From Shimia sagamensis (GTDB lineage: Bacteria; Pseudomonadota; Alphaproteobacteria; Rhodobacterales; Rhodobacteraceae): a stretch of 64,000 nt of DNA. The stretch is from NCBI RefSeq assembly GCF_900182745.1, contig NZ_FXTY01000002.1:496001-560000 (forward strand), written 5' to 3'. Both the position numbers and the translations under genes were made by a program. Of this stretch, positions 10,474 to 23,681 are shown piece after piece; position 1 is the first letter of the stretch; every line of letters starts with the position of its first letter. The notes beneath the pieces are model-generated. The model worked only from the letters and a program-made list of their open reading frames with translations, was not told the origin of the DNA and did not search any database.

Positions 10474-11142
10474 ATGAGATCTTCGAAGTCACGCTCGCGG
10501 AATAAGTCAAACCGCAATCGCCCAACATCGGGCAATATTGTCAACCGTGTGTTTGACAGCTCTGGTCCTGAAGGCAAAGTGCGCGGCACCCCTCAACAGG
10601 TGATCGACAAATATAATCAGCTCGCACGCGACAGCCAGCTGGGCAATGACCGCGTTGCCACCGAAAACTTCCAGCAGCACGCCGAACACTATCAGCGCAT
10701 GTTGAACGAAGCGCAGCGCGAACAAGATGCGCGGCGCGAGGAACAAGACCGCCAGAACCGCGAACGCCAGGCCGAGCGGGACCGCGAACGTCGCGAACGC
10801 ATGGAACGTCAGGAGCGCGAAGGCAACAGTGGTGGTGGCAACCGCGACAAAGCCCCTGCCCCGCAAAACACCCCTGATGCGCCAGTGGACCTCTCAGAGG
10901 CGGATCAACCTGACCTGATCGTCGACGTGGCTGAAAGCAGTCTTGTGGTGGACACACCAGAGGCGGAAGCGCCAGCAGCCAAAAAGCCCCCGCGCAAACG
11001 CGCCCCGCGCAAAAAGCCCGAGGACAAGGCAGAGGCATCCGGCGAGAAAACCGAAAAGAAGCCGCGCCGGGCACCAAAGAAAACAGAAGCCCCCGCAGAA
11101 CCTGCAGCGGCTCCGGCTGAGGACAGCAAAGCCGCGGAGTGA
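10474..11142 (+). CDS. DUF4167-family protein
   Basis: A 222-residue alphaproteobacterial protein. The conserved DUF4167 region covers about residues 1-75: a basic start (MRSSKSRSRNKSNRNRP), VNRVFDSSGPEGKVRGTP, then helices with YNQLARDSQ and HAEHYQRML. The rest is low-complexity: an Arg/Glu-rich, probably helical stretch (residues 82-115), and a tail rich in Ala, Pro, Lys and Glu. The strongly basic N-terminus suggests nucleic-acid binding, but no function is established that I know of. It follows prfA-prmC after a 222-base gap that holds a small GCCCGC/GCGGGC hairpin, and it is closed by a strong terminator. Confidence 0.85.
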   Translation: MRSSKSRSRNKSNRNRPTSGNIVNRVFDSSGPEGKVRGTPQQVIDKYNQLARDSQLGNDRVATENFQQHAEHYQRMLNEAQREQDARREEQDRQNRERQAERDRERRERMERQEREGNSGGGNRDKAPAPQNTPDAPVDLSEADQPDLIVDVAESSLVVDTPEAEAPAAKKPPRKRAPRKKPEDKAEASGEKTEKKPRRAPKKTEAPAEPAAAPAEDSKAAE

Positions 11143-11213: not shown

Positions 11214-12182
11214 TTATCCTTGCGCCAGAACCTGATCCATCATCATCTGCGTGCCCTGTGCCTGCTCCAACGGCCAAGCATAAGTTTCGCCCGTGCGGAT
11301 CGCCCGGCCAAAGGCCTCCACCTGTTGCACATATTGGTTCACCACTGGGAACCGCTCAATGCGCACGGTTTGATCCGGCATCGACAGATGTAATTCCGCC
11401 TGATCAAACTTGCCTGCATTAAACGGGCATGTCAGCGTCATCAGGCCCTTTTCGCCATGAAAATGCATTTCCTGACGAGGTGCCGACCGGATCGAGGTAT
11501 AGGCCTGATAGGTGAACCCCTCAAAGGCAAACCCCATGTCAGCAAACGTATCCACCCCATGCTCCCACTGCACCCGCGCGTAATCGAGCTGCACCGGCTC
11601 CTGTCCAGTGACAAACCGCACGCCGCCCAGCACATAAACGCCAATATCACGCAGTCCACCACCACCGGACGCCGCCTGATTGCGGATATTGCCGGTATCA
11701 TTGTTAAAAAACGAAAACGCCCCGTTCACATGCACCAACTTGCCAATAGTGCCGTCCGCCAACAACGCCTTGGCCCGCTGCCACTGTGGGTGATGCACAA
11801 TCATGTAAGCTTCCGCCGCCAACAGCCCGGCTGCGTCCCGCGCCGCTATCAGGCGATCAATCTCGGCCACATCCATGCCCACAGGCTTCTCAATCAGCAC
11901 CGATTTGCCCGCCTCAAGCGCCTTGATGCCCCATTCCACATGCAGATGGTTGGGCAGTGGGACGTAAATTGCGTCAATGTCTGGATCGTTGAGCATGCCC
12001 TCATAGCTCTCATGATGCCGCACGCCTGGCGCAAAAGCCGCAAACCCAGCGACTTTCTCTGCACTGGACGAGGCCACCGCCGCAAGCTCTGCACTTGTTG
12101 CTGCATGGATCGCTGGCCCCATGGTTGTTTTGGCAAAATTGGCGGCCCCGAGGATGCCCCAACGGACGGGTGAGGTGGTCAT
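11214..12182 (-). CDS. Gfo/Idh/MocA-family oxidoreductase
   Basis: A 322-residue NAD(P)-dependent oxidoreductase. The Rossmann fold is at the N-terminus (VRWGILGAANFAKTTMGPAI), the conserved EKPVG motif with its cofactor/catalytic lysine is in SVLIEKPVGMDVAEID, and the C-terminal substrate domain starts after AAEAYMIVHHPQWQ. Members oxidise sugars, inositols and related polyols; the substrate cannot be read from the sequence. The start at 12182 has GGAG nine bases upstream. The longer reading to 12242 would add a 20-residue stretch with no family resemblance. Confidence 0.85.
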   Translation of the reverse strand: MTTSPVRWGILGAANFAKTTMGPAIHAATSAELAAVASSSAEKVAGFAAFAPGVRHHESYEGMLNDPDIDAIYVPLPNHLHVEWGIKALEAGKSVLIEKPVGMDVAEIDRLIAARDAAGLLAAEAYMIVHHPQWQRAKALLADGTIGKLVHVNGAFSFFNNDTGNIRNQAASGGGGLRDIGVYVLGGVRFVTGQEPVQLDYARVQWEHGVDTFADMGFAFEGFTYQAYTSIRSAPRQEMHFHGEKGLMTLTCPFNAGKFDQAELHLSMPDQTVRIERFPVVNQYVQQVEAFGRAIRTGETYAWPLEQAQGTQMMMDQVLAQG

Positions 12183-12257
12183 GATAGCGCTCCCATTTGA
12201 TGTTGGGAGGCTATGCCGCAGACTCTCGGCGTGCAACAGCACAATCGGCCCAAAGGT

Positions 12258-13196
12258 TTAGTTCAGCCCTTTCAAAGCGAACACTCCCATGCGTTTGTTC
12301 AACTTGTCGCGCCATGTCTTGGCCTTCATATCCAGACAGTGATGGCGGAAAAACCAAAACAGGAAGGGTTCAAATGGCCAATCGCGCGTCCACGCAGCCT
12401 CTATCGCGTCAGGCACCTGCAACAAGTCTTGCACCGTTTGCGTGCAATGATGGAAATCCACCCGCCCAAAGGTCAGCGACGGCACCCTGTGCAACATCGC
12501 TTCCACAGCTACGCTGGAACTGATCGATGCACAGAGCGCCGCGTTCTTCAAAATGTCATGCAGATTGCCATCCACAATTTGCACGCCATCTGACTGCGCC
12601 GCCAGCGCTTCAATTTGGGGCCAGCTTTCCTCAGCCTTGTTGCGGGGATGGCGCTTAATCAACACTTCACGTCCCCCACGTGCGGCAATCAACGCCGCCA
12701 CCATGCTGGCTTCATCGGTATACGCCGCCCGCTTTACCGGCAGCGACTCGCCTTGCAAGAACACTGCGATTGCACCCGATGGATACTCAGTCGCCTCTGC
12801 AGGCTGCCCATGCTTGGACAGGCGCGGCTCCAATAGCCGCTCACGCAACCACCCACTGAACTTGGCCGCGCGTTCGGGCCGCACAGTTTCAGGATCAAAC
12901 TCCAAGTCATAAATCGAACTCAACCCAAACACGCCGTTGGGGTCGGCGTACCAGAAATCTTGCAAATAACTTGGCCCAGTGTTGAGCACATTGGACATCT
13001 CAACCAGGCCTTGATGCACAAAATGGAACGCCTCCGGCTCAAACCCGGCATGCGCCCGCAAATACATCCGCTCGCGCAGCTCCACTTCACCACCTGCATT
13101 GCTCAGTGCAGCCCCCAGTTGCCGGTAAAACGCGGCAGGCCCGTTGCGGACACCGGGGAGTTGGTGGGCTGGTAAATGAATAACAAAGCGCGTCAT
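12258..13196 (-). CDS. Capsule-polysaccharide-biosynthesis-like protein (KpsS/KpsC related fold, inferred)
   Basis: A 312-residue protein. The C-terminal half has a layout like that of the Kdo-transferase-type capsule proteins: EVLIKRHPRNK (a Lys-x-His-Pro motif), a helix-rich gap, then SISSSVAVEAMLHRVPSLTFGRVDFH, comparable to KAHP and VNSTAAQQVLWRGIPIKAFG in the KpsS of this same window (35444-36736). That supports a GT-B-like glycosyltransferase of surface polysaccharide synthesis, but the exact role is inferred. No signal peptide or membrane segment is seen. It lies alone between an oxidoreductase and rpoH, away from the kps genes. A gap of 75 bases separates it from the oxidoreductase start. 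Confidence 0.6.
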   Translation of the reverse strand: MTRFVIHLPAHQLPGVRNGPAAFYRQLGAALSNAGGEVELRERMYLRAHAGFEPEAFHFVHQGLVEMSNVLNTGPSYLQDFWYADPNGVFGLSSIYDLEFDPETVRPERAAKFSGWLRERLLEPRLSKHGQPAEATEYPSGAIAVFLQGESLPVKRAAYTDEASMVAALIAARGGREVLIKRHPRNKAEESWPQIEALAAQSDGVQIVDGNLHDILKNAALCASISSSVAVEAMLHRVPSLTFGRVDFHHCTQTVQDLLQVPDAIEAAWTRDWPFEPFLFWFFRHHCLDMKAKTWRDKLNKRMGVFALKGLN

Positions 13197-13256
13197 GCCC
13201 CTTCATGGCACCCCACGCGCACCACGTCTAGTTGCGGAACAAAGCCCCCAAGCGCA

Positions 13257-13291
13257 CAAAAAAACCGACCCGAAATTGGGCCGGTTTCTAT
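13257..13291 (-). terminator. Intrinsic terminator after rpoH
   Basis: On the minus strand AACCGGCCC and GGGTCGGTT form a nine-base stem with one G-U pair and a six-base loop, followed by TTTTTTG. It starts 19 bases past the rpoH stop codon. Confidence 0.8.
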
Positions 13292-13309
13292 ATCTTTCAT
13301 TTAGAAGCG

Positions 13310-14206
13310 TCAGTGCGCCGTCAACATCCCGCGTGTGGCGGCCAATTCCCGCATGCGTTTCTGCAGCTTTTCAAAGGCCCGCACTTCAATCTGACGGATC
13401 CGCTCACGGCTCACATCATATTGACCGCTCAGGTCTTCCAATGTGACCGCCTTCTCCGTCAAACGGCGTTGGGTCAGGATGTCTTTCTCCCGATCGTTCA
13501 GCACATCCATGGCCTCCGTCAGAAGCTCACGGCGGGCATCCAGCTCGTCTTTGGCCTCGTAGTCGCGCGCTTGGTTGGCGGTTTCATCCTCCAGCCAATC
13601 CATCCACTCCATAGTGCCTTCACCTTCGGAGCCAACCTGTGCGTTCAACGAAGCATCTCCGCCGGACATGCGCCGGTTCATCGAGATCACTTCTTTCTCC
13701 GTCACACCAAGATCGGTGGCAATCCGCTGCACGTTTTCCGGGCGCATATCGCCATCTTCCAAAGCACCAATCCGCGCTTTGGCTTTCCGCAGGTTGAAGA
13801 ACAGCTTCTTCTGCGCCGACGTGGTGCCAAGTTTCACCATGGACCAGCTGCGCAGCACATATTCCTGAATACTCGCGCGGATCCACCACATCGCATACGT
13901 CGCCAGACGGAAGCCTTTTTCCGGATCAAACTTCTTCACAGCTTGCATCAGACCAACGTTGGCCTCGGAAATCACCTCAGCCTGTGGCAGGCCGTAGCCG
14001 CGATAGCCCATGGCAATTTTGGCCGCGAGACGCAGGTGCGAGGTGACCATTTTATGGGCGGAATCAGCGTCCTGCTCTTCGACCCAGCGTTTGGCCAGCA
14101 TGTATTCTTCTTCCGGCTCCAAAAGCGGGAATTTGCGGATTTCCTGAAGATACCGGTTGAGACCACCTTCTGGTGTGGGTGCCGGCAGATTTTTGTAATT
14201 GCTCAT
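13310..14206 (-). CDS. rpoH: RNA polymerase sigma factor RpoH (sigma-32)
   Basis: A 298-residue heat-shock sigma factor that directs RNA polymerase to chaperone and protease genes. Region 2 is GYGLPQAEVISEANVGLMQAVKKFDPEKGFRLATYAMWWIRASIQEYVL. The RpoH-specific box follows as QKKLFFNLRKAKA, which separates it from RpoD-like factors. Region 4.2 ends in [21 protein letters not shown]. The start has GGGAGG upstream. The closest paralogue here is rpoD at 44011-46005, which is far longer. Confidence 0.95.
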   Translation of the reverse strand: MSNYKNLPAPTPEGGLNRYLQEIRKFPLLEPEEEYMLAKRWVEEQDADSAHKMVTSHLRLAAKIAMGYRGYGLPQAEVISEANVGLMQAVKKFDPEKGFRLATYAMWWIRASIQEYVLRSWSMVKLGTTSAQKKLFFNLRKAKARIGALEDGDMRPENVQRIATDLGVTEKEVISMNRRMSGGDASLNAQVGSEGEGTMEWMDWLEDETANQARDYEAKDELDARRELLTEAMDVLNDREKDILTQRRLTEKAVTLEDLSGQYDVSRERIRQIEVRAFEKLQKRMRELAATRGMLTAH

Positions 14207-15440: not shown

Positions 15441-15762
15441 GGATGAGTCTCCGGAACCAATTGAACCCGCCAACCTCCGCTTTCTGCGCCTGCTGGTGAC
15501 AGGGCTGACGGTGGTGATGATGGTCGGGCTTGTAACCGTGGTTGCACTGATTGTCATGCGCTTCCGTGATGACGGTCCCATCTTACCAGAAAACCTTGCT
15601 TTGCAAGACGGAGTGATGGCCCAAGCTGTGACCATGGGGGACGGCTGGGTGGCCGTTGTTACGGATGACAACCGCATTCTGATTCACGATCGCATTACCG
15701 GCGCATTGCGCCAGGAAGTGGTTCTGTCTCCCGAGGCGTTTGGAGTGTCTGTGAGCGAATAG
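15439..15762 (+). CDS. DUF6476-family small membrane protein
   Basis: A 107-residue protein with one membrane segment (LLVTGLTVVMMVGLVTVVALIVM, residues about 18-40) and a short periplasmic domain (GDGWVAVVTDDNRILIHDRITGALRQEVVL) that resembles part of a beta-propeller blade. It matches my memory of DUF6476, a Rhodobacterales family without known function. AAGGG lies eight bases before the ATG. Its start codon overlaps the divergent rluD start codon within CCATGG. Confidence 0.75.
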   Translation: MDESPEPIEPANLRFLRLLVTGLTVVMMVGLVTVVALIVMRFRDDGPILPENLALQDGVMAQAVTMGDGWVAVVTDDNRILIHDRITGALRQEVVLSPEAFGVSVSE

Positions 15763-16108
15763 GCTGGGGTTTAGCCCTCACCGGCTTTGGAAACAAAATC
15801 GCAACAGACCTAGCATTATCCCACAAACAGAAACAGATTTCGCACTTCCACACGCCCCTCCAATTGCTTCCCTGCAATTGGAGGCCAGTCGCCCTGCTAG
15901 AAACATCAGTCTCGGCAACCGCGCTTTGAGTCTTTTGGCCGTTAACAAATCGTGATTCCGTTAATTTCTCCGCATCACATGTGACGCAGTTCGGCCAGTT
16001 TTCCCCTTATTTTGTTCGTAAACACGCGTGTTTGCGCGAGTTTGATTGATTTTATCTCAAATTCGAAATTCCCGATAAAGTGGTGTCAGCAACCAAAAGG
16101 ACTGAGCC
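15763..16108. other. Intergenic region with two inverted repeats
   Basis: No gene is supported here. It contains an 11-base perfect inverted repeat, CCTCCAATTGC (15857-15867) with GCAATTGGAGG (15874-15884), but no T-run follows, so terminator function is doubtful. It also holds a 14-base perfect palindrome, AAACACGCGTGTTT (16020-16033), 75 bases before the peroxidase gene, which is a candidate operator. The rest is AT-rich and probably carries the peroxidase promoter. Confidence 0.6.
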
Positions 16109-17686
16109 ATGTCGCACCGTGACCTCGAAATCGATGATGTCTTCGCCGCAACCGGTGACACATCACAGCCGTCACCTCTCACCGAAGAGATGACGGTCTA
16201 TCTGGCGACATTGCTCAACAACAACAACAGCACAACCAACGCTTCCAAAGGCTTCCTCAACCAAGCACAGGGCGCCCATCTCGGCGTGCCCGCTGGCTAT
16301 TCCTATCTGTTCCAACTCGCGGGCCATGATCTGGTGTTCAGCTCTCTGGTGCCCCGCGCCTTTGACGATATCGGCGGACGGTCCCAAAACCTGCGCCAGG
16401 AGAAACTCGCGCTGGAAACTCTGTTTGGAGGTGGCCCGATTGTCTGCCCGCACGCTTTCGACATGCAACATCAGGACGGCACGCACCGGTTACGTCTGGG
16501 CAAATTCCGCCCCGCCGGGCGCATGTCTGATGACCGTTTGTCCCCGTCAGCAGATCTGCCCCGCAATCGCTACAGCGCTGATAGTCCAGACGCTGACGGG
16601 CCCTTTACCGACGTGCTGATCCCGGACTCGCGCAACGATGACAACAATATCCTCGCCCAGCTCACCGCGTTTTTCCATGCGGTCTACAACACACTTGTGG
16701 CGCATACAGCGACGGCTCAGATGCCTGGCACCGGGGGCCCTATCCCGCCACATCACCGCGCCCGCGTCGCGCGACTGGCCACGGCACGCCTCTACCGTCG
16801 CGTCCTACGCCACGACCTGTTGCCGCGCATCATGCCTGCGAACGTCTTGGCCCTGTTTGACGCCAACGCCGGTCTGGACCCCCTTGGACGCACGCCCTCT
16901 GAGACAAATGACCTCTTCGCCTATGGCATTGCCCGCATGGCGCACAGCATGGTGCGCCCGGAGTATATGCTGAACAATGGCGTCGATGGTCATGATCTTG
17001 GCGAGGTCGATCTGCGAAAAATCATCAACCATTCGTCGCTGCATGAGCCCGGTATGGTGCCCACCCCAATTGACTGGAAGATCGACTGGGCTCTGTTCTT
17101 CACCGCCCCCGGCGCGCAGTTGCCAAACAACTTCAACTGGGCGATCCGCTTTGGGCCACATACAGCAGATGGCATGACGCTTGCCACCGCTGGCAAGCCC
17201 ACCAAAGGCAGCTACCCCGCGGGCACCGCGATGCGGGATCTTTTGCGCGAAAAATGGATTGGTTTGGGCCGGGTGCAAGACCTGATCCAATCGGCCGCCG
17301 CCGCGCTCACGGCACAGGGCGTCGCCGTGCCTTTTGACGCGGCCACACATTACAACCGCATCGCCACTACCGGCATGGCTGCCCTCGAGGCCGCTGTGCG
17401 TCCGGGCCACAAACCGCCCATGTCAGATGCGGACAAGGCAACCATCACCGCCAACTTGCCGCTGGTCACATTCCTAGCGTTGGAAGCGCAAATCGATGGC
17501 AACAATGGCGCCACCTACGGCCCGCTTGGCGGTCTTATCCTCGGCGCGGCCTTTGCCCCGGTCTTTGGCGATGACACGCCGTCCAGCACAGACGCTCACT
17601 TCGCCCAAGCCCTCGAAATTGCCGCCTATGGCAGCACGCCAATCCGCGACATGCCCACGCTGGTCGCGGCCACCCCCATTACCTGA
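16109..17686 (+). CDS. Animal-type haem peroxidase family protein
   Basis: A 525-residue protein of the peroxidase-cyclooxygenase (animal haem peroxidase) superfamily. The distal haem region is LAGHDLVF with His73-Asp74, comparable to the HD of animal peroxidases. The central signature is DSRNDDNNILAQLTAFFHAVYNTLV (residues about 171-196). The proximal-His candidate is in FAYGIARMAHSMVRPEYML. There is no signal peptide or membrane segment, so it is cytoplasmic or leaves by a non-Sec route. Bacterial members can oxidise halides, lipids or aromatic compounds; the substrate here is unknown. It is followed after 29 bases by a 123-aa protein gene with a strong ribosome site, so the two are probably co-transcribed. 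Confidence 0.85.
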   Translation: MSHRDLEIDDVFAATGDTSQPSPLTEEMTVYLATLLNNNNSTTNASKGFLNQAQGAHLGVPAGYSYLFQLAGHDLVFSSLVPRAFDDIGGRSQNLRQEKLALETLFGGGPIVCPHAFDMQHQDGTHRLRLGKFRPAGRMSDDRLSPSADLPRNRYSADSPDADGPFTDVLIPDSRNDDNNILAQLTAFFHAVYNTLVAHTATAQMPGTGGPIPPHHRARVARLATARLYRRVLRHDLLPRIMPANVLALFDANAGLDPLGRTPSETNDLFAYGIARMAHSMVRPEYMLNNGVDGHDLGEVDLRKIINHSSLHEPGMVPTPIDWKIDWALFFTAPGAQLPNNFNWAIRFGPHTADGMTLATAGKPTKGSYPAGTAMRDLLREKWIGLGRVQDLIQSAAAALTAQGVAVPFDAATHYNRIATTGMAALEAAVRPGHKPPMSDADKATITANLPLVTFLALEAQIDGNNGATYGPLGGLILGAAFAPVFGDDTPSSTDAHFAQALEIAAYGSTPIRDMPTLVAATPIT

Positions 17687-17715
17687 AAACACTGTTCAAA
17701 CAAGGAGGACGAACA

Positions 17716-18087
17716 ATGGATCCCTATGAAATCAAAATCAAAAACTACCTGAAGATGGGTGAAATCTTGCAGGGTTGGGCGCGCAATGCGGACACGGTGC
17801 CACAAACCGTCGGCGACTTCCGAGACCAAGTGCCCAGCAACGTTGCAGAACTGGCCGAGGAATTTGCCAGCGAAGATCCGCTTAAAATCTTCAATGCGCC
17901 GGATCAGAAAGTGGTGAGCATCATGTTGCCACATCCCGACGACCTCGATCTGCCACCGCCCAGCCCTTATACACTGCCGGATTTTTACGACGAAGCCTAC
18001 GACGCGACATTGGTCACACCATCGGAAGAGGAACATAACTTCCGGTCCAAACGCATCGCAGATTACGCCTTGCGCAAATGCGTGTGA
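17716..18087 (+). CDS. Small acidic protein downstream of the peroxidase
   Basis: A 123-residue protein of no recognised family. The ribosome site is near-perfect (AAGGAGG, eight bases before ATG). The N-terminal half is helical in character (YEIKIKNYLKMGEILQGWA, then VAELAEEFASEDPLKIF). A proline-rich middle (DLDLPPPSPYTLPDFYDEAYD) leads to a basic end RIADYALRKCV with the only cysteine as the penultimate residue. It has no signal peptide. Being paired with the peroxidase, it could be its substrate, a partner or a precursor peptide for the nearby YcaO protein; none of these is shown. It converges with the BTAD regulator gene, with 15 bases between. Confidence 0.6.
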   Translation: MDPYEIKIKNYLKMGEILQGWARNADTVPQTVGDFRDQVPSNVAELAEEFASEDPLKIFNAPDQKVVSIMLPHPDDLDLPPPSPYTLPDFYDEAYDATLVTPSEEEHNFRSKRIADYALRKCV

Positions 18088-18102
18088 CGGGCGCTTAGTA
18101 CA

Positions 18103-20130
18103 TTAGGATTTGCCGGGATCCAATTGATATCCAAGAGCAATTTTGTCGCTTTGAATCAAATCTGGCACCGGCATATCCGCCAATCGCAACCCGTCCCGCA
18201 ATGCAAGCCAGACCTTGCGATTGCGGATCGGGAAGCCGGACACCAACCAACGTGTGATTTCGGCCCGCTCAGGCGGTGCTTCGGCCACCCAATTGGACCG
18301 CGCAATGCTTTCAAACCGCCGCGCCACCGAAGCCGCCTCAGGCAAGCGCCCGACCAATCCCAATGCGGAGGCGTGCCAGGCGGGCACGTCGTGAGAAATC
18401 TCATCTGATTTCTCAGACGCCGCGATACAGCCCTCATAATCCCCTGCCATAAACCGGGAGGCCGCGACATAGCTCCAATGCGACGGCTGCAGGCGGAAAT
18501 TCAGCTTAAACAGCAGATCGAGCAGGCGGTTTGAGGCGTCAAGTTGATCACAAAAGGCCAGCCCCACCGCGGAGGACGTCATCGTCCAAGGGTCATTTTC
18601 ATTGTACTGAAACGCCAGATCAAAGGCCAATTCCGCCTGCTCAAACTGCCGCGACATCGCCGCTGACCACCCCATGGCCAACTGCCCTCGGCTATCCATC
18701 GGGTCCAACTCAATCGCCCGTCGTGCCAGCCGCAGCCCTTCGACATGTAGATCAGGCGAACTGTAGAGCCCGGGAAAGGAAATCTGACGCATATTCTCAA
18801 TCGATGCGCGGCTCGAATAGGCCCGGCTGAACTCCGGGTAGTCGCGGATCAGCGCGTCAAGCAACCCCTCCGCGGTCTTCCATCCCTCAAGCGTAAACTG
18901 CAGAATATACCCCTGCGCCTCAACCCAACGCTCGTACGCACTTGGTGCGGTCTTGTTGGTGGCATTCAGCGGTCCTTTGAAAGCCGACAGATGCAGGTTC
19001 AACGCCACCGCCAGTCGTTCCGCCGCCCCCGGCCCTTCAGCCAAAGCCATCTGTCCTGCGTCGCTCAGCGCCTCAGACCACAACAGCTCGCCCGTACTGC
19101 GATCAGACAGGACCGCGCGGCAGGTCAAATTGTTGCCACGGACCTGCGGTTGCAACACCAACGAATAGCTCGCGGCGCCCGACTCACCTACAGGGGCATT
19201 TTCCGCCATCAATGACGCATCAAAAATCTGCCATTCACGGAATCTGGAGAGATTGGCACAAAGCGCTTGGCGCAATGCTTCGGCCTCACCCGTCCGCTCC
19301 GCCGACAAATGGCCGTAGCTCGGCTGTGCCACAACAATCACCGGCCGTAAGGTCTTGGACACCGGCGCACTCATTGGCGACTTGATGTCGACCACAAGTT
19401 GCTGAGTTTCCTCAGAAGGCTCCTCGCCATACTCCTGATCCAACAGGCTCCACAGCGACTGGTACACGGTCAGTGCATTCGCCATTTGACCACTCTGCCA
19501 ATACGCTTTGATCAACCGCCGCGCGGCGCCTTCGTCGGCTGGGTCCATGCTGGCCACAAACCGCAGGACGTCCAGGCGCTCTTCCGGCGAGGCCGCTGCA
19601 TCTGCCGTCGCGTTTAGTCGGTGCCGCATCACCCCGCAAACATGCTGAACCGAGTCCTTCACCCGCACCGAAAACATGTCGTTGATCTCGACTTGGTCGC
19701 GATCAAATTGCGCCAGCTTTTGGGGATCTATCCGCAAAATCGGAGCCATGTCTCCGCGATCCGCCGCATCAAGCAGCACATCCAGATCCACATCAACCCG
19801 CTCTTGCGCGAGCCACACATCGCTGCGATCGCTAAAAATGCCGTCAAATCCTGCATCATGCAGGGCAGCTTTTAGCGCCCAAACTGCGTTGCGCAGGCTG
19901 GTCTGCGCCGCCGTCTCTGAGCTGTCCGGCCACAGAACACCGCGCAGTTTTTCCCGCGTCATGCGCAAATCAGGTGACAAGGACAACAGCACCAAAATGG
20001 CGGCGGCTTTTTTCTTTTTGATCTCAACACGCCCGCCGTCACAACGGGCCTGAAACCCGCCGACTACGTCAATCCGAAGCCGCTCCGACGCTGTGTCAGG
20101 CGCTGCAAAATTGGTCTGGTCCCGCTCCAT
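18103..20130 (-). CDS. BTAD/SARP-like transcriptional regulator with C-terminal TPR-type repeats
   Basis: A 675-residue regulator. Residues about 17-110 form an OmpR-type winged helix (LRIDVVGGFQARCDG..., MTREKLRGVLWPDSSETAAQTSLRNAVWALKAAL). A bacterial transcriptional activator domain follows (LDVLRFVASMDPADEGAARRLIKAYWQSGQMANALTVYQSL, with EEPSEETQQLV). The middle (LRPVIVVAQPSYGH to LAVALNLHL) resembles the TolB-like/adenylate-cyclase-associated domain found between DNA-binding and TPR parts. The C-terminus has tetratricopeptide-like helices (AYSSRASIENMRQ, ARRAIELDPMDSRGQLAMGW). This architecture is known from SARP, AfsR and CadC-like activators. Its ATG overlaps the YcaO stop codon by one base (TAATG), so it is translationally coupled and probably controls this locus. 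Confidence 0.85.
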   Translation of the reverse strand: MERDQTNFAAPDTASERLRIDVVGGFQARCDGGRVEIKKKKAAAILVLLSLSPDLRMTREKLRGVLWPDSSETAAQTSLRNAVWALKAALHDAGFDGIFSDRSDVWLAQERVDVDLDVLLDAADRGDMAPILRIDPQKLAQFDRDQVEINDMFSVRVKDSVQHVCGVMRHRLNATADAAASPEERLDVLRFVASMDPADEGAARRLIKAYWQSGQMANALTVYQSLWSLLDQEYGEEPSEETQQLVVDIKSPMSAPVSKTLRPVIVVAQPSYGHLSAERTGEAEALRQALCANLSRFREWQIFDASLMAENAPVGESGAASYSLVLQPQVRGNNLTCRAVLSDRSTGELLWSEALSDAGQMALAEGPGAAERLAVALNLHLSAFKGPLNATNKTAPSAYERWVEAQGYILQFTLEGWKTAEGLLDALIRDYPEFSRAYSSRASIENMRQISFPGLYSSPDLHVEGLRLARRAIELDPMDSRGQLAMGWSAAMSRQFEQAELAFDLAFQYNENDPWTMTSSAVGLAFCDQLDASNRLLDLLFKLNFRLQPSHWSYVAASRFMAGDYEGCIAASEKSDEISHDVPAWHASALGLVGRLPEAASVARRFESIARSNWVAEAPPERAEITRWLVSGFPIRNRKVWLALRDGLRLADMPVPDLIQSDKIALGYQLDPGKS

Positions 20131-21182
20131 TAGTAAAGAGGCCCCTGCGTCCGTCGTTTTTTCCCAAAAAGCGCCGCCTGCAACCGTGGGCATACGTGAA
20201 TTTCCCGGCCACTCTGCAAAGCTGTGCTCGTCGCTTTGATGACCTGAAATACCCCCTCAACACAACCCAGATCGACAATACCGACATCGCTTTTGGCACA
20301 AACCGCACCCCATTCCTCTTTCGCGATCACACCCCGCATTTGAACCTGCGCCTCAAGCGCGGTTTTCTGCGTCACAAATGCAGCGTTAAACTGGTCCAAT
20401 GTAAGTGTGTTGACGGTCAGAGTTGCCCCCCCGTCCTTAGGCAAGACGTTCCGAGAGACGTCCAACTGGCGCCCAAACTCCGCCGCTCCCAGTTCGCGCA
20501 CCGCAGACACCACTGCATCCCTTAAATGCGCGCCCGCAGCAGCTCCAAAACAAAAGCCGCCGCCACTCTGATCAAACGAGGCCGCAACAACCGCAGGCAC
20601 CTTCGTGTCACAGGTCACATCCAACACCCGTGTCTGACGCTTTGCCCGATGCCCAATCCCCTCGGCCACGAGCGCCTCAACACCCAACAGCTCCACAGCC
20701 TCTGTAGCTCCAGCCCACCAATGCGCCGCCGCGTCCCGTTCAAACAGCTCCAACACGCCGTGCCTTTGCGCCGCATCGACGTCCGTGTGCACCGCCAAGC
20801 CTTCGGAAAACCCAGCTGTCTCAGCCTCTGACGTAGGCAAAACCGATCGCGCCACAGGCGTTGCGTTCAGTCCCTGCCAGTCGCAAGCCAGAACAGGCGC
20901 CCGCTCCGGCAACTTGCCCAAATAGGTGCGAAGCCCAACTTGCTCGGCGGCTTCTCCGGCCAATCGTACCAATGCCGCATCAACAGCGTCTCCTGCGCCT
21001 GAAACCGGCGTGCCATCCGGCAAAACACCCCCGGCAATCACCAGCGCAGGCACACAAGAAGGACGCCCGACAAAAACATAGTCCAACCGCCTTAGAACCG
21101 GCGCGCAAAACCCTGGCGTTGCTTTTGGCAACACCATCTCGCCAGACGCAGACCGCTCGTACTCCCGCAGTTCCGTGAACAT
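20130..21182 (-). CDS. YcaO-domain protein
   Basis: A 350-residue protein whose middle matches the YcaO ATP-binding fold. Three acidic motifs are in order: SGAGDAVDAALVRLAGEAAEQ (61-81, Glu77/Glu80), HTDVDAAQRHGVLELFERDA (132-151, Glu145/Glu148) and GAHLRDAVVSAVRELGAAEFG (217-237, Glu230/Glu235). YcaO enzymes use ATP to activate peptide backbone amides and make azolines, thioamides or amidines; partners select the substrate. No TfuA, E1-like or Ocin-ThiF partner is visible nearby. The C-terminus (CPRLQAALFGKKRRTQGPLY) lacks the usual proline-rich end of azoline-forming YcaOs. I chose the ATG at 21182; a TTG at 21212 would add 10 residues. Its stop overlaps the regulator start. Confidence 0.8.
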   Translation of the reverse strand: MFTELREYERSASGEMVLPKATPGFCAPVLRRLDYVFVGRPSCVPALVIAGGVLPDGTPVSGAGDAVDAALVRLAGEAAEQVGLRTYLGKLPERAPVLACDWQGLNATPVARSVLPTSEAETAGFSEGLAVHTDVDAAQRHGVLELFERDAAAHWWAGATEAVELLGVEALVAEGIGHRAKRQTRVLDVTCDTKVPAVVAASFDQSGGGFCFGAAAGAHLRDAVVSAVRELGAAEFGRQLDVSRNVLPKDGGATLTVNTLTLDQFNAAFVTQKTALEAQVQMRGVIAKEEWGAVCAKSDVGIVDLGCVEGVFQVIKATSTALQSGREIHVCPRLQAALFGKKRRTQGPLY

Positions 21183-21330
21183 CCCGCCCCGATTCCCCTC
21201 ACAACACGCCAAAACACACCGTCAATCACCCGCTCCAGCCCCAAGGATACAAGGTAATTCCCGCAAATCACGCAAGAATAACGGTGGCTCTGGCACATTT
21301 GTCTCAAAGACGACCAAACTGGAGGATCCA

Positions 21331-22716
21331 ATGTCCCGCCCCCGCCCAACAGAGACCACAACAGCAGCCCAAACCGCCACCAACGACGCCCACAAAGAGG
21401 CGTTGGAAGCGCTGCGCGACATGTATTGTGATCGTACTGACGTGACCGGCTATGACATTGGCTTCAAACGTGTGGGTGGGCTGGCGACCAACAAGCTATG
21501 CTTACGTGTGCATGTACATTCCAAATTGCCCGAAGACGAACTTGATCCGGGCAACCACATCGTGCGCCGAATCAATGGCTTTCCTGTCGATGTGGTTGCC
21601 AGCACCTACAAAGTGCATCGCGACCAAGGGGATGGGCAAGGCAGCTATACCACCACTTTACTCTCTGGAAGCCCCTGCCAACGTCGCGGGGCCCATGGCG
21701 GCACCATTGGCGCGATTGCCATTGACCGGTCCACTGGCTCTGCCGGGATTCTGTCCAACTGGCATGTGCTGTCCTCGCCAGAAGGCGCCGACAGCGATCT
21801 GGTTTATGGCGGCAAGACAACCGATCTGCCCATTGCCCGTTTGAGCAAATCCATGTTGTCGCGCCATGGCGATGCCGCTTTTGCGCCTTTGACCGGCGCA
21901 ACCCCGTGGCAGCCCACATTGAAACACCTCAATCTGACCTTGACCGGCGTGGCACCGGCGGCCTTGGGGCGTAATCTATACAAATATGGCCGCACCACCG
22001 GCCTGACCCATGCCCGCGTGGATGGCATTGGCACATACAAAGTTGTGCACAGCCATGCTGATGGCCGCCGTAAAACTGTCGAGGTCGACGGATTCCGTCT
22101 TGTTCCACAAGACATTTCGGCCCCGATGGCAGCCCTGTCCCTGCCCGGTGACAGTGGCGCCTGCTGGGTAGACCCGGACACGGGCGCTGCCGTCGGTCTG
22201 CATATGGCCGGAGAAGGTGATGACTGGCCTGGTGGCGACTGTGCCTTGGCCTGCCACATGGACAGCGTGCTGGAGCGGCTGGATCTGCGATTGGCAACCC
22301 TGTGTGACCTGCCCAAACAGACGATCTCGGACGGTGCAACCGGCCTCCCAAAAATCGCGCCTCCCCTGCATATGATGATGCGCCCTACGCATTCCTTTGC
22401 CCCTCAGAGCATCTCGGATCCACAGCGGGTGTTCAGTGTGCAAGGCAACATTTGGGCCGAGTTCCTGCGCACCATGCTGACACAACATCCGGAATTTTCT
22501 CAGGTGCCGTTCGACATCGAGGACGCCGTGGCTGACTACTTTGGCTACGGCACTTCCGGCGAAGCGCTGCACACAATCATCCTCGCCTCCGCAGAATTCC
22601 TGCGCGACGGCGCAGTACCCGACATCGACGTGCTGACCAAAGAGGTGACCTTCCGTGGCGTGTGTTTCCGCATTGCAGAGGCGTATCGCGCCCGTGGCTA
22701 TTGCATCACCGCCTAG
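21331..22716 (+). CDS. Trypsin-like serine protease with unknown flanking domains
   Basis: A 461-residue protein with a chymotrypsin-fold core. The triad is readable: His145 in GILSNWHVL, Asp181 in RHGDAAFAPL and Ser275 in LPGDSGACWV. Residues 1-100 (ALRDMYCDRTDVTGYDIGFKRVGG..., LCLRVHVHSKLPEDELDPG) resemble the N-terminal part of bacterial proteins that precede such a protease core. The C-terminal 130 residues (VFSVQGNIWAEFLRTMLTQHPEF...YFGYGTSGEALHTIILASAEFL) are a helical domain I do not recognise. No signal peptide is present, so the protease is probably cytoplasmic. GGAGG lies five bases before the ATG. It is divergent from the YcaO gene (148 bases between starts) and is followed after 37 bases by an unknown gene. 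Confidence 0.8.
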   Translation: MSRPRPTETTTAAQTATNDAHKEALEALRDMYCDRTDVTGYDIGFKRVGGLATNKLCLRVHVHSKLPEDELDPGNHIVRRINGFPVDVVASTYKVHRDQGDGQGSYTTTLLSGSPCQRRGAHGGTIGAIAIDRSTGSAGILSNWHVLSSPEGADSDLVYGGKTTDLPIARLSKSMLSRHGDAAFAPLTGATPWQPTLKHLNLTLTGVAPAALGRNLYKYGRTTGLTHARVDGIGTYKVVHSHADGRRKTVEVDGFRLVPQDISAPMAALSLPGDSGACWVDPDTGAAVGLHMAGEGDDWPGGDCALACHMDSVLERLDLRLATLCDLPKQTISDGATGLPKIAPPLHMMMRPTHSFAPQSISDPQRVFSVQGNIWAEFLRTMLTQHPEFSQVPFDIEDAVADYFGYGTSGEALHTIILASAEFLRDGAVPDIDVLTKEVTFRGVCFRIAEAYRARGYCITA

Positions 22717-22753
22717 GCCGCAGCTCGCTGATTTGCCAGAGGATTCCGCCCGC

Positions 22754-23383
22754 ATGAGCCAACGTATTTACGCCATCGACACGGTGACGCTAACCCAGCA
22801 AGAGGGCCAATCACCCAACCTGTTGGTTCAGGTGCAGGCCAGAGCTGTCTCCTCCGGCTGGCGCGCGCCAACCTTGGCATTGCACCGTTACCGGCAGCCG
22901 CCAGAGGACGGTATTTTGTCCTTTGATTTGATCGGTACCGCACCGGATTCACTTAGCACCACGCTGCCTGTGCTCACTCATACCTGCGCTGACACAGTTT
23001 TGCCTGATGTGGACCTTGCCAACTATTGGGGCCCGGACCAGCCGCTAGTTGGGGTGCGCTGTCATGCACAAAGCAACACCAAATTGGCGCTTCTGCAACC
23101 CAAACTTGGCATTCCAGAAGTCACCCTGATCCCCAAGATCACCATGTCAGAGGATTTTTGCCCCCAGTTTTCCCGGGATATTCGCCCGCTGTTTCGCCCC
23201 TATGACATTGCCATGATGATCATGGTGCGCGATTTGGACCTCGGGTCTTATGAAGCCGTGAGCCAACACGGAGCGTTGATTTTATCGCGCCTGAAAGATG
23301 GCAGCATGCCCAGCGACGGCCCTTGGCCCGCTAGCGACATCGCGCTGTTTGAACAATGGCTGGCACAGGGCAAAGCACCTTAG
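22754..23383 (+). CDS. Conserved hypothetical protein with IRPLF...SYE...MP-DGPWP end
   Basis: A 209-residue protein without signal peptide. The N-terminal 140 residues (RIYAIDTVTLTQQEG..., SSGWRAPTLALHRY) look like a beta-sandwich. The C-terminal 65 residues carry FSRDIRPLFRPYDIAMM, LDLGSYEAVSQHGALILSRLKDGSMPSDGPWP and FEQWLAQG. A closely similar end is familiar from small helical domains that accompany oxidative enzymes and look like c-type cytochromes without the haem motif. There is no CxxCH here. It lies 37 bases after the protease gene in the same direction and is probably in one operon. Its function is unknown. Confidence 0.65.
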   Translation: MSQRIYAIDTVTLTQQEGQSPNLLVQVQARAVSSGWRAPTLALHRYRQPPEDGILSFDLIGTAPDSLSTTLPVLTHTCADTVLPDVDLANYWGPDQPLVGVRCHAQSNTKLALLQPKLGIPEVTLIPKITMSEDFCPQFSRDIRPLFRPYDIAMMIMVRDLDLGSYEAVSQHGALILSRLKDGSMPSDGPWPASDIALFEQWLAQGKAP

Positions 23384-23492
23384 AAACCAAGCGCGGCAAA
23401 GCACACAAACGCCACGTTCCTCCCTGTTGATGGGTCATCCCCCCATCAACTGCTGTTGAAACACTTACATCCCCATTGGTGTTTCGACATCC

Positions 23493-23529
23493 GGGGCGGT
23501 TGCCGGGTCTGTCCCCCCGCAACCGCCCC
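23493..23529. terminator. GC-rich hairpin between the unknown gene and tRNA-His
   Basis: Eleven-base perfect arms GGGGCGGTTGC (23493-23503) and GCAACCGCCCC (23519-23529) with a 15-base loop, followed on the plus strand by AAATATTTT. It could end plus-strand transcription from the 22754-23383 gene. Its flank resembles the short intergenic repeat family described at 24533, 30002, 34550 and 61205. Confidence 0.5.
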
Positions 23530-23604
23530 AAATATTTTGGGACGCAAATAGCCCACGACACCACATGCGCAGGCAAATTGTCTTCAAATGGATGGGGGGG
23601 GGGG

Positions 23605-23681
23605 TGGTACCGCCTCCCCGGCTCGAACGGGGGACCCCTGGTTCCACAAACCAGTGCTCTAACCAACTGAGCTAAGGCGGC
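23605..23681 (-). tRNA. tRNA-His (anticodon GTG)
   Basis: A complete 77-base cloverleaf on the minus strand with encoded CCA. Acceptor strand GCCGCCT pairs with AGGCGGT (first pair is G-U). The D arm is GCTC/GAGC, the anticodon stem CTGGT/ACCAG encloses TTGTGGA with anticodon GTG (23647-23645), and the T arm CCCCG/CGGGG encloses TTCGAGC. The gene encodes no extra 5' G opposite a C73; the discriminator is A73. This is the non-canonical tRNA-His known from many Alphaproteobacteria. A run of 11 Gs on the plus strand (23594-23604) abuts its 3' end. Confidence 0.95.

Follow-up and report, generated by a model that had tools for sequence, protein, structure and literature searches.

A 64,000-nucleotide window of the Shimia sagamensis genome (contig NZ_FXTY01000002.1, positions 496,001 to 560,000) contains, at window positions 16109-23383, the six genes that form the scope of this analysis. 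Four of them belong to one conserved unit: a regulator with a BTAD domain (BTAD), a stand-alone YcaO enzyme (YcaO), a haem peroxidase (PEROX), and a small protein with a cysteine at its C-terminal end (SMALL). This unit, known here from sequence alone, is probably a protein-modification cassette resembling those of ribosomally synthesized and post-translationally modified peptides (RiPPs), in which SMALL would be the dedicated substrate. An earlier, sequence-only reading of the same DNA had placed all six genes in a single candidate undescribed system, and had seen in a YcaO together with a protease and an oxidase the logic of a peptide- or protein-modifying pathway. Its six open frames were confirmed; the system does look undescribed, and the logic stands for YcaO plus oxidase. 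As to the system itself, the regulator, YcaO, peroxidase, and SMALL do belong together (64 loci and two fusions), whereas the remaining pair, a protease and a 209-residue protein (U209), falls outside the general unit, since a relative of the protease is present beside only 10 of the 64 loci.

Linkage of the core genes

Loci were collected with BTAD, PEROX, YcaO, protease, or SMALL queries, and the counts do not describe a random sample. Within a family sample of 120 genomes (that of S. sagamensis included), relatives of YcaO are present in 7, of the peroxidase in 10, and of the protease in 4. In genomes G099 and G005 two of these three lie side by side, and the cassette is also present in regions of G099, G005, G038, and G031, with BLAST match identities of 23-37%. 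When BTAD was searched for across the order (390 genomes), 38 more regions came to light. Among the 22 of them whose BTAD matches are strongest (L066-L087), 20 contain both YcaO and the peroxidase, and two (L080 and L083) contain YcaO without the peroxidase. When the class was searched with the peroxidase (385 genomes), YcaO adjoined it in 5 of 20 further places (L127, L128, L129, L138, and L142). A scan of named genomes, for which the query was a nine-row peroxidase alignment (A8; a 23-row BTAD alignment gave no conserved stretch), returned 55 loci. Of these, 47 have both peroxidase and YcaO and 8 do not, 4 of the latter being on contigs that possibly cut the cassette (L175, L177, L192, and L196). 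With SMALL as the only query, a search across the phylum (329 genomes) returned five matches besides the query itself, and all six (own genome included) lie within the class of the window. The four of these loci that were fetched each have PEROX, BTAD, a YcaO match, and a Cys at the penultimate position of SMALL, the YcaO match of L258 being a 96-residue piece only (10707-10994). The cassette is recovered with BTAD, PEROX, or SMALL as the starting query.

In total, the peroxidase and YcaO occur together at 78 loci, of which 64 are non-redundant after removal of near-duplicates at a threshold of 95% peroxidase identity. None of these 64 loci is longer than 6.8 kb, yet the genes are arranged in six different ways, so that the linkage of YcaO to PEROX survives rearrangement. 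(Nine arrangements were tallied, three of which differ just by a gene that is fused (L176; L078), unlisted (L183), or cut (L174).) The genes are also found physically joined, in one observation each. In L176 (Shimia sp. CNT1-13L.2), an 848-residue frame fuses YcaO (independent E-value 9.6e-48) to the peroxidase (1.8e-98), and in L078 a 675-residue frame fuses the peroxidase (2.5e-111) to SMALL (5.9e-24). Matrices of pairwise identity, one for each of the four genes, are correlated with one another at 0.59-0.72 (0 of 200 permutations each), a correlation that arises partly from shared host ancestry. Independent occurrence of the genes, which the sequence-only reading had named as the test against itself, is contradicted for the core four: they co-occur at the 64 loci, with BTAD matched at 63 (only weakly at L138 and L142), and the two fusions link them. 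The core is one conserved four-gene unit of BTAD, stand-alone YcaO, haem peroxidase, and SMALL.

The cysteine tail of SMALL

The sequence-only reading had listed two unknown proteins. U209 is accessory; the other, SMALL, is the likely substrate, and its cysteine tail had been missed. Among the SMALL proteins of the first five loci just two residues are invariant, the start Met and the next-to-last Cys, and in the SMALL alignment (A9) Cys122 is an invariant column. Counting back from the C terminus, Cys is at position -2 in 60 of the 63 loci with a known tail; the three exceptions have it at -3 (L128) or at -1 and -4 (L138 and L142). In the same 63 tails, position -7 is Tyr in 54 and position -9 is Gly or Ala in 58. 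Because the Cys had helped to pick some of the SMALL frames in this count, the tail was recounted by position alone, using the longest frame that starts near the peroxidase stop on the same strand. This rule, which gives the most trustworthy count, yields a frame in 59 of the 64 loci and a Cys at -2 in 54 of the 59. The misses are L085, L086, L178, and L183, where a frame other than SMALL was taken, and L128, with its Cys at -3; no frame was obtained for L087, L078, L174, L138, and L142. A model blind to the tail (last 14 residues removed) finds SMALL in 51 of the 64 loci, and 50 of these have the Cys at -2, but it largely re-finds its own 47 training rows. Beyond those rows it picks up 22 loci, mostly near-duplicates, and each of them has Cys at -2. 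As controls, a single one of 191 core enzymes has Cys at -2, as have 196 of 4635 stop-to-stop frames of at least 100 residues. Similarly, a frame ending in [YFI]x4Cx lies within 1.5 kb in 57 of the 64 cassettes, versus 2 of 19 peroxidase loci without YcaO.

The two loci without a peroxidase, L080 and L083, keep YcaO and SMALL, and their tails, GYSCAQCT and AYTCSQCA, contain two Cys residues. Because both YcaO and the Cys tail are kept there, these two may constitute the minimal pair, with the peroxidase as an added tailoring step. A peroxidase-made crosslink between Tyr(-7) and Cys(-2) was also considered; Tyr -7 is present in L080 and L083 too and so is not peroxidase-specific, though such a crosslink may still form. 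These two peroxidase-less versions (L080, 7468-14569; L083, 11331-16284) also carry trypsin-like proteases, and L080 a murein endopeptidase-like protein as well.

Within the genus, the ratio of nonsynonymous to synonymous substitution rates (dN/dS) is 0.01-0.05 for SMALL, the lowest in the cassette, 0.21-0.33 for YcaO, the highest, and 0.03-0.13 for the others, with dS near or past saturation in several pairs. In dN, YcaO exceeds the peroxidase, regulator, and protease by a factor of about two to five. AlphaFold2 models of SMALL are folded, with predicted local distance difference test (pLDDT) scores of 83.8 (window protein) and 85.3; each has a C-terminal helix whose tip is less certain.

Likeness of SMALL to NHLP leaders

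SMALL is likely to be a remote homologue of the nitrile hydratase-like leader peptides (NHLPs), at a distance that places it below the TIGR03793 cut-off for membership of that family. One of ten SMALL proteins scanned, that of L142, touches TIGR03793 across nearly the whole model (E 0.12), and the window SMALL has no match to it. When aligned with hhalign to a reference set of ten genuine NHLPs, a 14-row SMALL alignment scores 87.6% over 28 columns and the window group 62.5%, versus 0.35% for a peroxidase control and at most 0.7% for 40 column-shuffled controls. The common stretch lies around IPxxxxIxVxxxxxxxHxxLPP. In addition, an NHLP profile ranks SMALL proteins 1-6 among 4805 sequences (75 SMALL proteins and 4730 decoy frames, the decoys being mostly spurious frames); the chance of this ranking is about 1.4e-6, counted roughly by three lineages. 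Elsewhere in the S. sagamensis genome (contig C4; L249, 239-901), a protein with a CTLCSC motif gives a sub-threshold match to the NHLP leader model, because it looks like nitrile hydratase alpha.

The enzymes and the regulator

The YcaO and BTAD identities proposed earlier were borne out by direct Pfam matches of the window proteins (E 6.4e-18 and 1.2e-10, respectively). In 23 YcaO sequences, E77, E80, and E145 are invariant and E148, E230, and E235 nearly so; these glutamates presumably form the ATP/Mg site. A YcaO profile matches best to TruD (3.4e-33) and LynD, followed by MusD and two YcaOs that we take to be of archaeal origin (6ci7 and MJ1094). Its match to the PDB chain named S12 methylthiotransferase accessory factor YcaO is 8.8e-7. 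Set against the TruD match, this rules out an E. coli-type YcaO, an alternative that the sequence-only reading had itself raised. As side observations, Paracoccus denitrificans and a relative have a second, remoter YcaO match just past the cassette (L159, 13764-15329; L155, 13767-16157; L257, 10764-12329), and in L260 another member of the peroxidase family (12011-13858) lies divergent from YcaO.

In single-sequence searches neither the window peroxidase nor the window protease matches Pfam or NCBIfam. However, a relative of the peroxidase comes just under the cut-off for An_peroxidase (1.1e-5), and in the PDB lactoperoxidase is matched by a 26-row peroxidase profile at 2.1e-13. Across 26 sequences His73 and His279 are invariant and Arg175 is nearly so, and we take these to be the distal His, the proximal His, and the Arg of the active site. 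With these residues and the family profile match, PEROX is confirmed as an animal-type haem peroxidase, as had been proposed.

The start of BTAD overlaps the stop of YcaO in the sequence TAATG (20132-20128), and because of this overlap the translational coupling suggested earlier is plausible. Relatives of BTAD also lie near YcaO and TfuA (L090, 7339-11432; L094, 8518-12786; TfuA Pfam matches 7.1e-39 and 3.8e-41), which suggests that the BTAD clade may serve other YcaO loci. L094 has, besides its YcaO-TfuA pair, a peroxidase match some kilobases off; no SMALL is identifiable there.

Distribution and mobility

The cassette extends over several orders of the Alphaproteobacteria. Within the Rhodobacterales it is present in Phaeobacter, Pseudophaeobacter, Shimia, Pelagimonas, Primorskyibacter, Roseobacter, Sulfitobacter, Pseudooctadecabacter, Tateyamaria, Gemmobacter, and Paracoccus. 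It is also found in Belnapia and Falsiroseomonas (Acetobacterales), in Oricola, a Rhizobiaceae, and two other metagenome-assembled genomes of the Hyphomicrobiales, and in Inquilinus. In the Shimia-like genus the cassette sits between rluD and tRNA-His (window 15465-23605). Among 12 further regions of the genus at this site, two have the cassette (L202 and L203), one has the protease alone (L212, as judged within the fetched 19 kb), and nine have neither; in L204, L205, and L213 the spacing from rluD to tRNA-His is 333-390 bp. Distant versions of the cassette lie at the same tRNA-His in L026 and L027. The space between rluD and tRNA-His is a hotspot for insertion, occupied or empty among sister strains. 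A plasmid search returned 10 records, and the two that were examined both carry the cassette: pP78_a of Phaeobacter inhibens P78 (genes at 103298-108232) and a 1.7-Mb replicon of P. denitrificans.

Proposed pathway and alternatives

In the pathway that we favour, the folded, NHLP-like domain of SMALL would present a C-terminal helix, mostly ending ...Y-x4-C-x-COOH. YcaO, an ATP-dependent, amide-activating enzyme closest to the azoline-forming cyanobactin heterocyclases, would act on the amide before Cys(-2), most likely closing this Cys to a thiazoline; a thioamide is another possible product. The haem peroxidase would then oxidise the group made by YcaO, filling the place that a flavin dehydrogenase has with the classical thiazole/oxazole peptides and a P450 has with bottromycin. 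BTAD, apparently translationally coupled to YcaO here, would control the set, and in this lineage the protease, which resembles NARROW LEAF 1 (NAL1), and U209 would be additions, perhaps processing or releasing the tail. More tentatively, and with odds that we place below even, the peroxidase and the partnerless YcaO might act on a folded carrier protein at its one C-terminal Cys, the modified tail staying in place as a built-in cofactor or signal; this would represent a new class of ribosomal modification.

Several observations weigh against the substrate role of SMALL and the chemistry proposed for it. The best TIGR03793 score among the ten SMALL proteins scanned is 12.3 bits, versus a cut-off of 50.9. 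With hhalign, the larger SMALL group scores just 1.9% against the NHLPs and 12.8% against the window SMALL group. With the NHLP profile no single SMALL protein does better than E 0.0066, and decoys are mixed in from rank 7. Neither SMALL model has a convincing PDB fold match (Foldseek, VIA). No GG cleavage motif precedes the tails of the aligned SMALL proteins, and residue -1 varies across the 63 tails, so that the final product is not obvious. SMALL is also conserved rather than hypervariable (dN/dS as above), unlike a diversifying natural product. The alignment of YcaO to TruD covers residues 413-746, the YcaO part, only, and no RiPP recognition element (RRE) or ThiF part was recognised in YcaO, no RRE model having been run; in MprC, by contrast, it is an RRE domain that binds the NHLP (PMC12455567). 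The four core genes include no transporter or conserved protease. As for linkage, the 16 regions with weaker BTAD matches contain the full cassette in L089 alone, and 15 of the 20 class-level peroxidase regions are without YcaO in the fetched stretch, some of the contigs being short. Because of these 15, the peroxidase family must be regarded as wider than the cassette.

SMALL might, alternatively, not be a substrate at all. It could instead be an adaptor or activator, such as a recognition domain or redox partner, with a Cys that is catalytic, docking, or metal- or haem-ligating, and with the true substrate elsewhere. We regard this as clearly the less likely reading. In its favour are the strong constraint over the whole of SMALL, the folded models, the fusion to the peroxidase, and the lack of a separate core peptide. 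On the other hand, the classical targets of YcaO enzymes are backbone amides, in many cases those at Cys, Ser, or Thr, and SMALL resembles, if remotely, the NHLP leaders. Furthermore, in L080 and L083 the tail keeps its Cys and has a second one (SCAQCT and TCSQCA), a pattern better suited to a core than to an adaptor.

A cassette for conflict or antimicrobial activity, releasing toxic oxidants or a bacteriocin-like modified protein and using the variable hydrolases as effectors or immunity functions, is improbable. Such a role would suit the location next to tRNA-His, where sister strains have empty sites, the two plasmid copies, the high dN of YcaO, and the proteases, murein endopeptidase-like protein, and amidase or nuclease domains at some loci. 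However, the six window proteins match no PADLOC family, and a defence system is kept only as this weak rival; no transporter or immunity gene was recognised among the core, relatives of the window protease are confined to 10 of the 64 loci, and SMALL is conserved, not diversifying. Finally, the idea that the genes are independent neighbours, or that a housekeeping E. coli-type YcaO lies beside unrelated genes, would accommodate the peroxidase regions without YcaO and the weaker-BTAD regions, but it is contradicted by the 64 loci with their six arrangements and two fusions, by recovery from multiple queries, and by the identity correlations, and deserves almost no credence.

Accessory genes and coordinates

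The coordinates of the features are collected in Table 1. Four of the starts given there are corrected and probably right: 20130 for BTAD, 21182 (or 21212) for YcaO, 21328 for the protease, and 22754 for U209. A profile of the protease matches NARROW LEAF 1 (1.6e-5) and, weakly, alpha-lytic protease (0.015). The window protease has the motifs NWHV, GDAA, and GDSG, which presumably contain the triad, in agreement with the trypsin fold proposed earlier. Including the protease in one general system was rejected on the count of its relatives given above. U209-like proteins are present beside 7 loci, the window included. Elsewhere, L034 (10839-16083) has two large proteins divergent from YcaO, with GDSL/Amidase_3/M15 and trypsin/endonuclease-phosphatase domains; among the neighbours listed for the other loci, no mutual relation is apparent by eye. 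A phage origin was discarded: the window proteins have no PHROG match except for the protease.

Table 1. Features of the cassette and its surroundings, in coordinates of the 64,000-nucleotide window
Feature	Position	Strand	Basis
PEROX, animal-type haem peroxidase, 525 amino acids	16109..17686	+	Profile matches and conserved residues; fusions L176, L078
SMALL, Cys-tailed, 123 amino acids, candidate precursor/substrate, ends ADYALRKCV	17716..18087	+	Tail counts, NHLP likeness, dN/dS
Codon of penultimate Cys122, proposed modification site	18079..18081	+	Invariant column of the SMALL alignment
BTAD, SARP/BTAD-TPR regulator, 675 amino acids	18103..20130	-	Pfam; start overlaps YcaO stop
YcaO, stand-alone; alternative start TTG 21212	20130..21182	-	Pfam, glutamates, TruD profile match
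NARROW LEAF 1-like trypsin-fold protease, 462 amino acids, accessory	21328..22716	+	Profile match, motifs
U209, 209 amino acids, accessory, no Pfam match	22754..23383	+	Relatives beside L068, L069, L128, L181, L186, L188
tRNA-His (gtg), edge of insertion site	23605..23681	-	Same tRNA beside distant cassettes L026, L027

Relation to known systems

The cassette looks like an undescribed YcaO pathway of RiPP-like kind, and there is a real chance that it represents a new class. The existing annotation of P. inhibens P78 treats the four genes one at a time, calling them YcaO-like, peroxidase, hypothetical, and BTAD, and no description of a YcaO-peroxidase unit was found in titles or passages of the open-licence full-text literature. 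YcaOs without a known partner are a recognised open question, and many uncharacterised YcaOs may make novel products (PMC4603692). Because the substrate is predicted to the residue in cultivable species, the question is directly testable here; P. inhibens P78 and Paracoccus denitrificans DSM 413 are such hosts. If the proposed pathway is true, a haem peroxidase serving as a RiPP tailoring enzyme would extend the known chemistry, as would a folded precursor with a core of about one residue.

The systems most similar to the proposed pathway are the thiazole/oxazole-modified microcin (TOMM) type RiPPs with NHLP or proteusin precursors (MprE/MprC, NHLP-TOMM; PMC12455567 and PMC4603692). The cassette has in common with them an NHLP-like leader domain, an azoline-type YcaO profile, and an oxidising enzyme. 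Unlike them, it has no recognised RRE/ThiF part, a haem peroxidase replaces the flavin dehydrogenase, and no GG site or long core is seen, the putative core being about one C-terminal Cys. Likewise, none of the six window proteins matches, in Pfam or NCBIfam, the C-protein/ThiF-type partner or flavin dehydrogenase of the classical TOMM systems. The TfuA-YcaO thioamide systems also have a YcaO with an ATP site, and some BTAD relatives lie near YcaO and TfuA; the cassette differs from these systems in having no TfuA match among the six window proteins and in a YcaO profile that is nearer to TruD and LynD than to 6ci7 and MJ1094. The accessory protease shares a profile match with the NAL1 family and differs from it in being bacterial and linked to the cassette, beside 10 of the 64 loci.

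The bottromycin cluster offers another parallel. This cluster is described as being without a cyclodehydratase partner, with BtmE inferred to make the thiazoline and the P450 BtmJ oxidising it (PMC5103208). The cassette has a peroxidase fold where bottromycin has a P450; it also lacks a follower peptide and a second core YcaO, and its precursor is different. What the two would have in common is a partnerless YcaO and a haem enzyme that acts on a Cys-derived thiazoline, as proposed here for PEROX.

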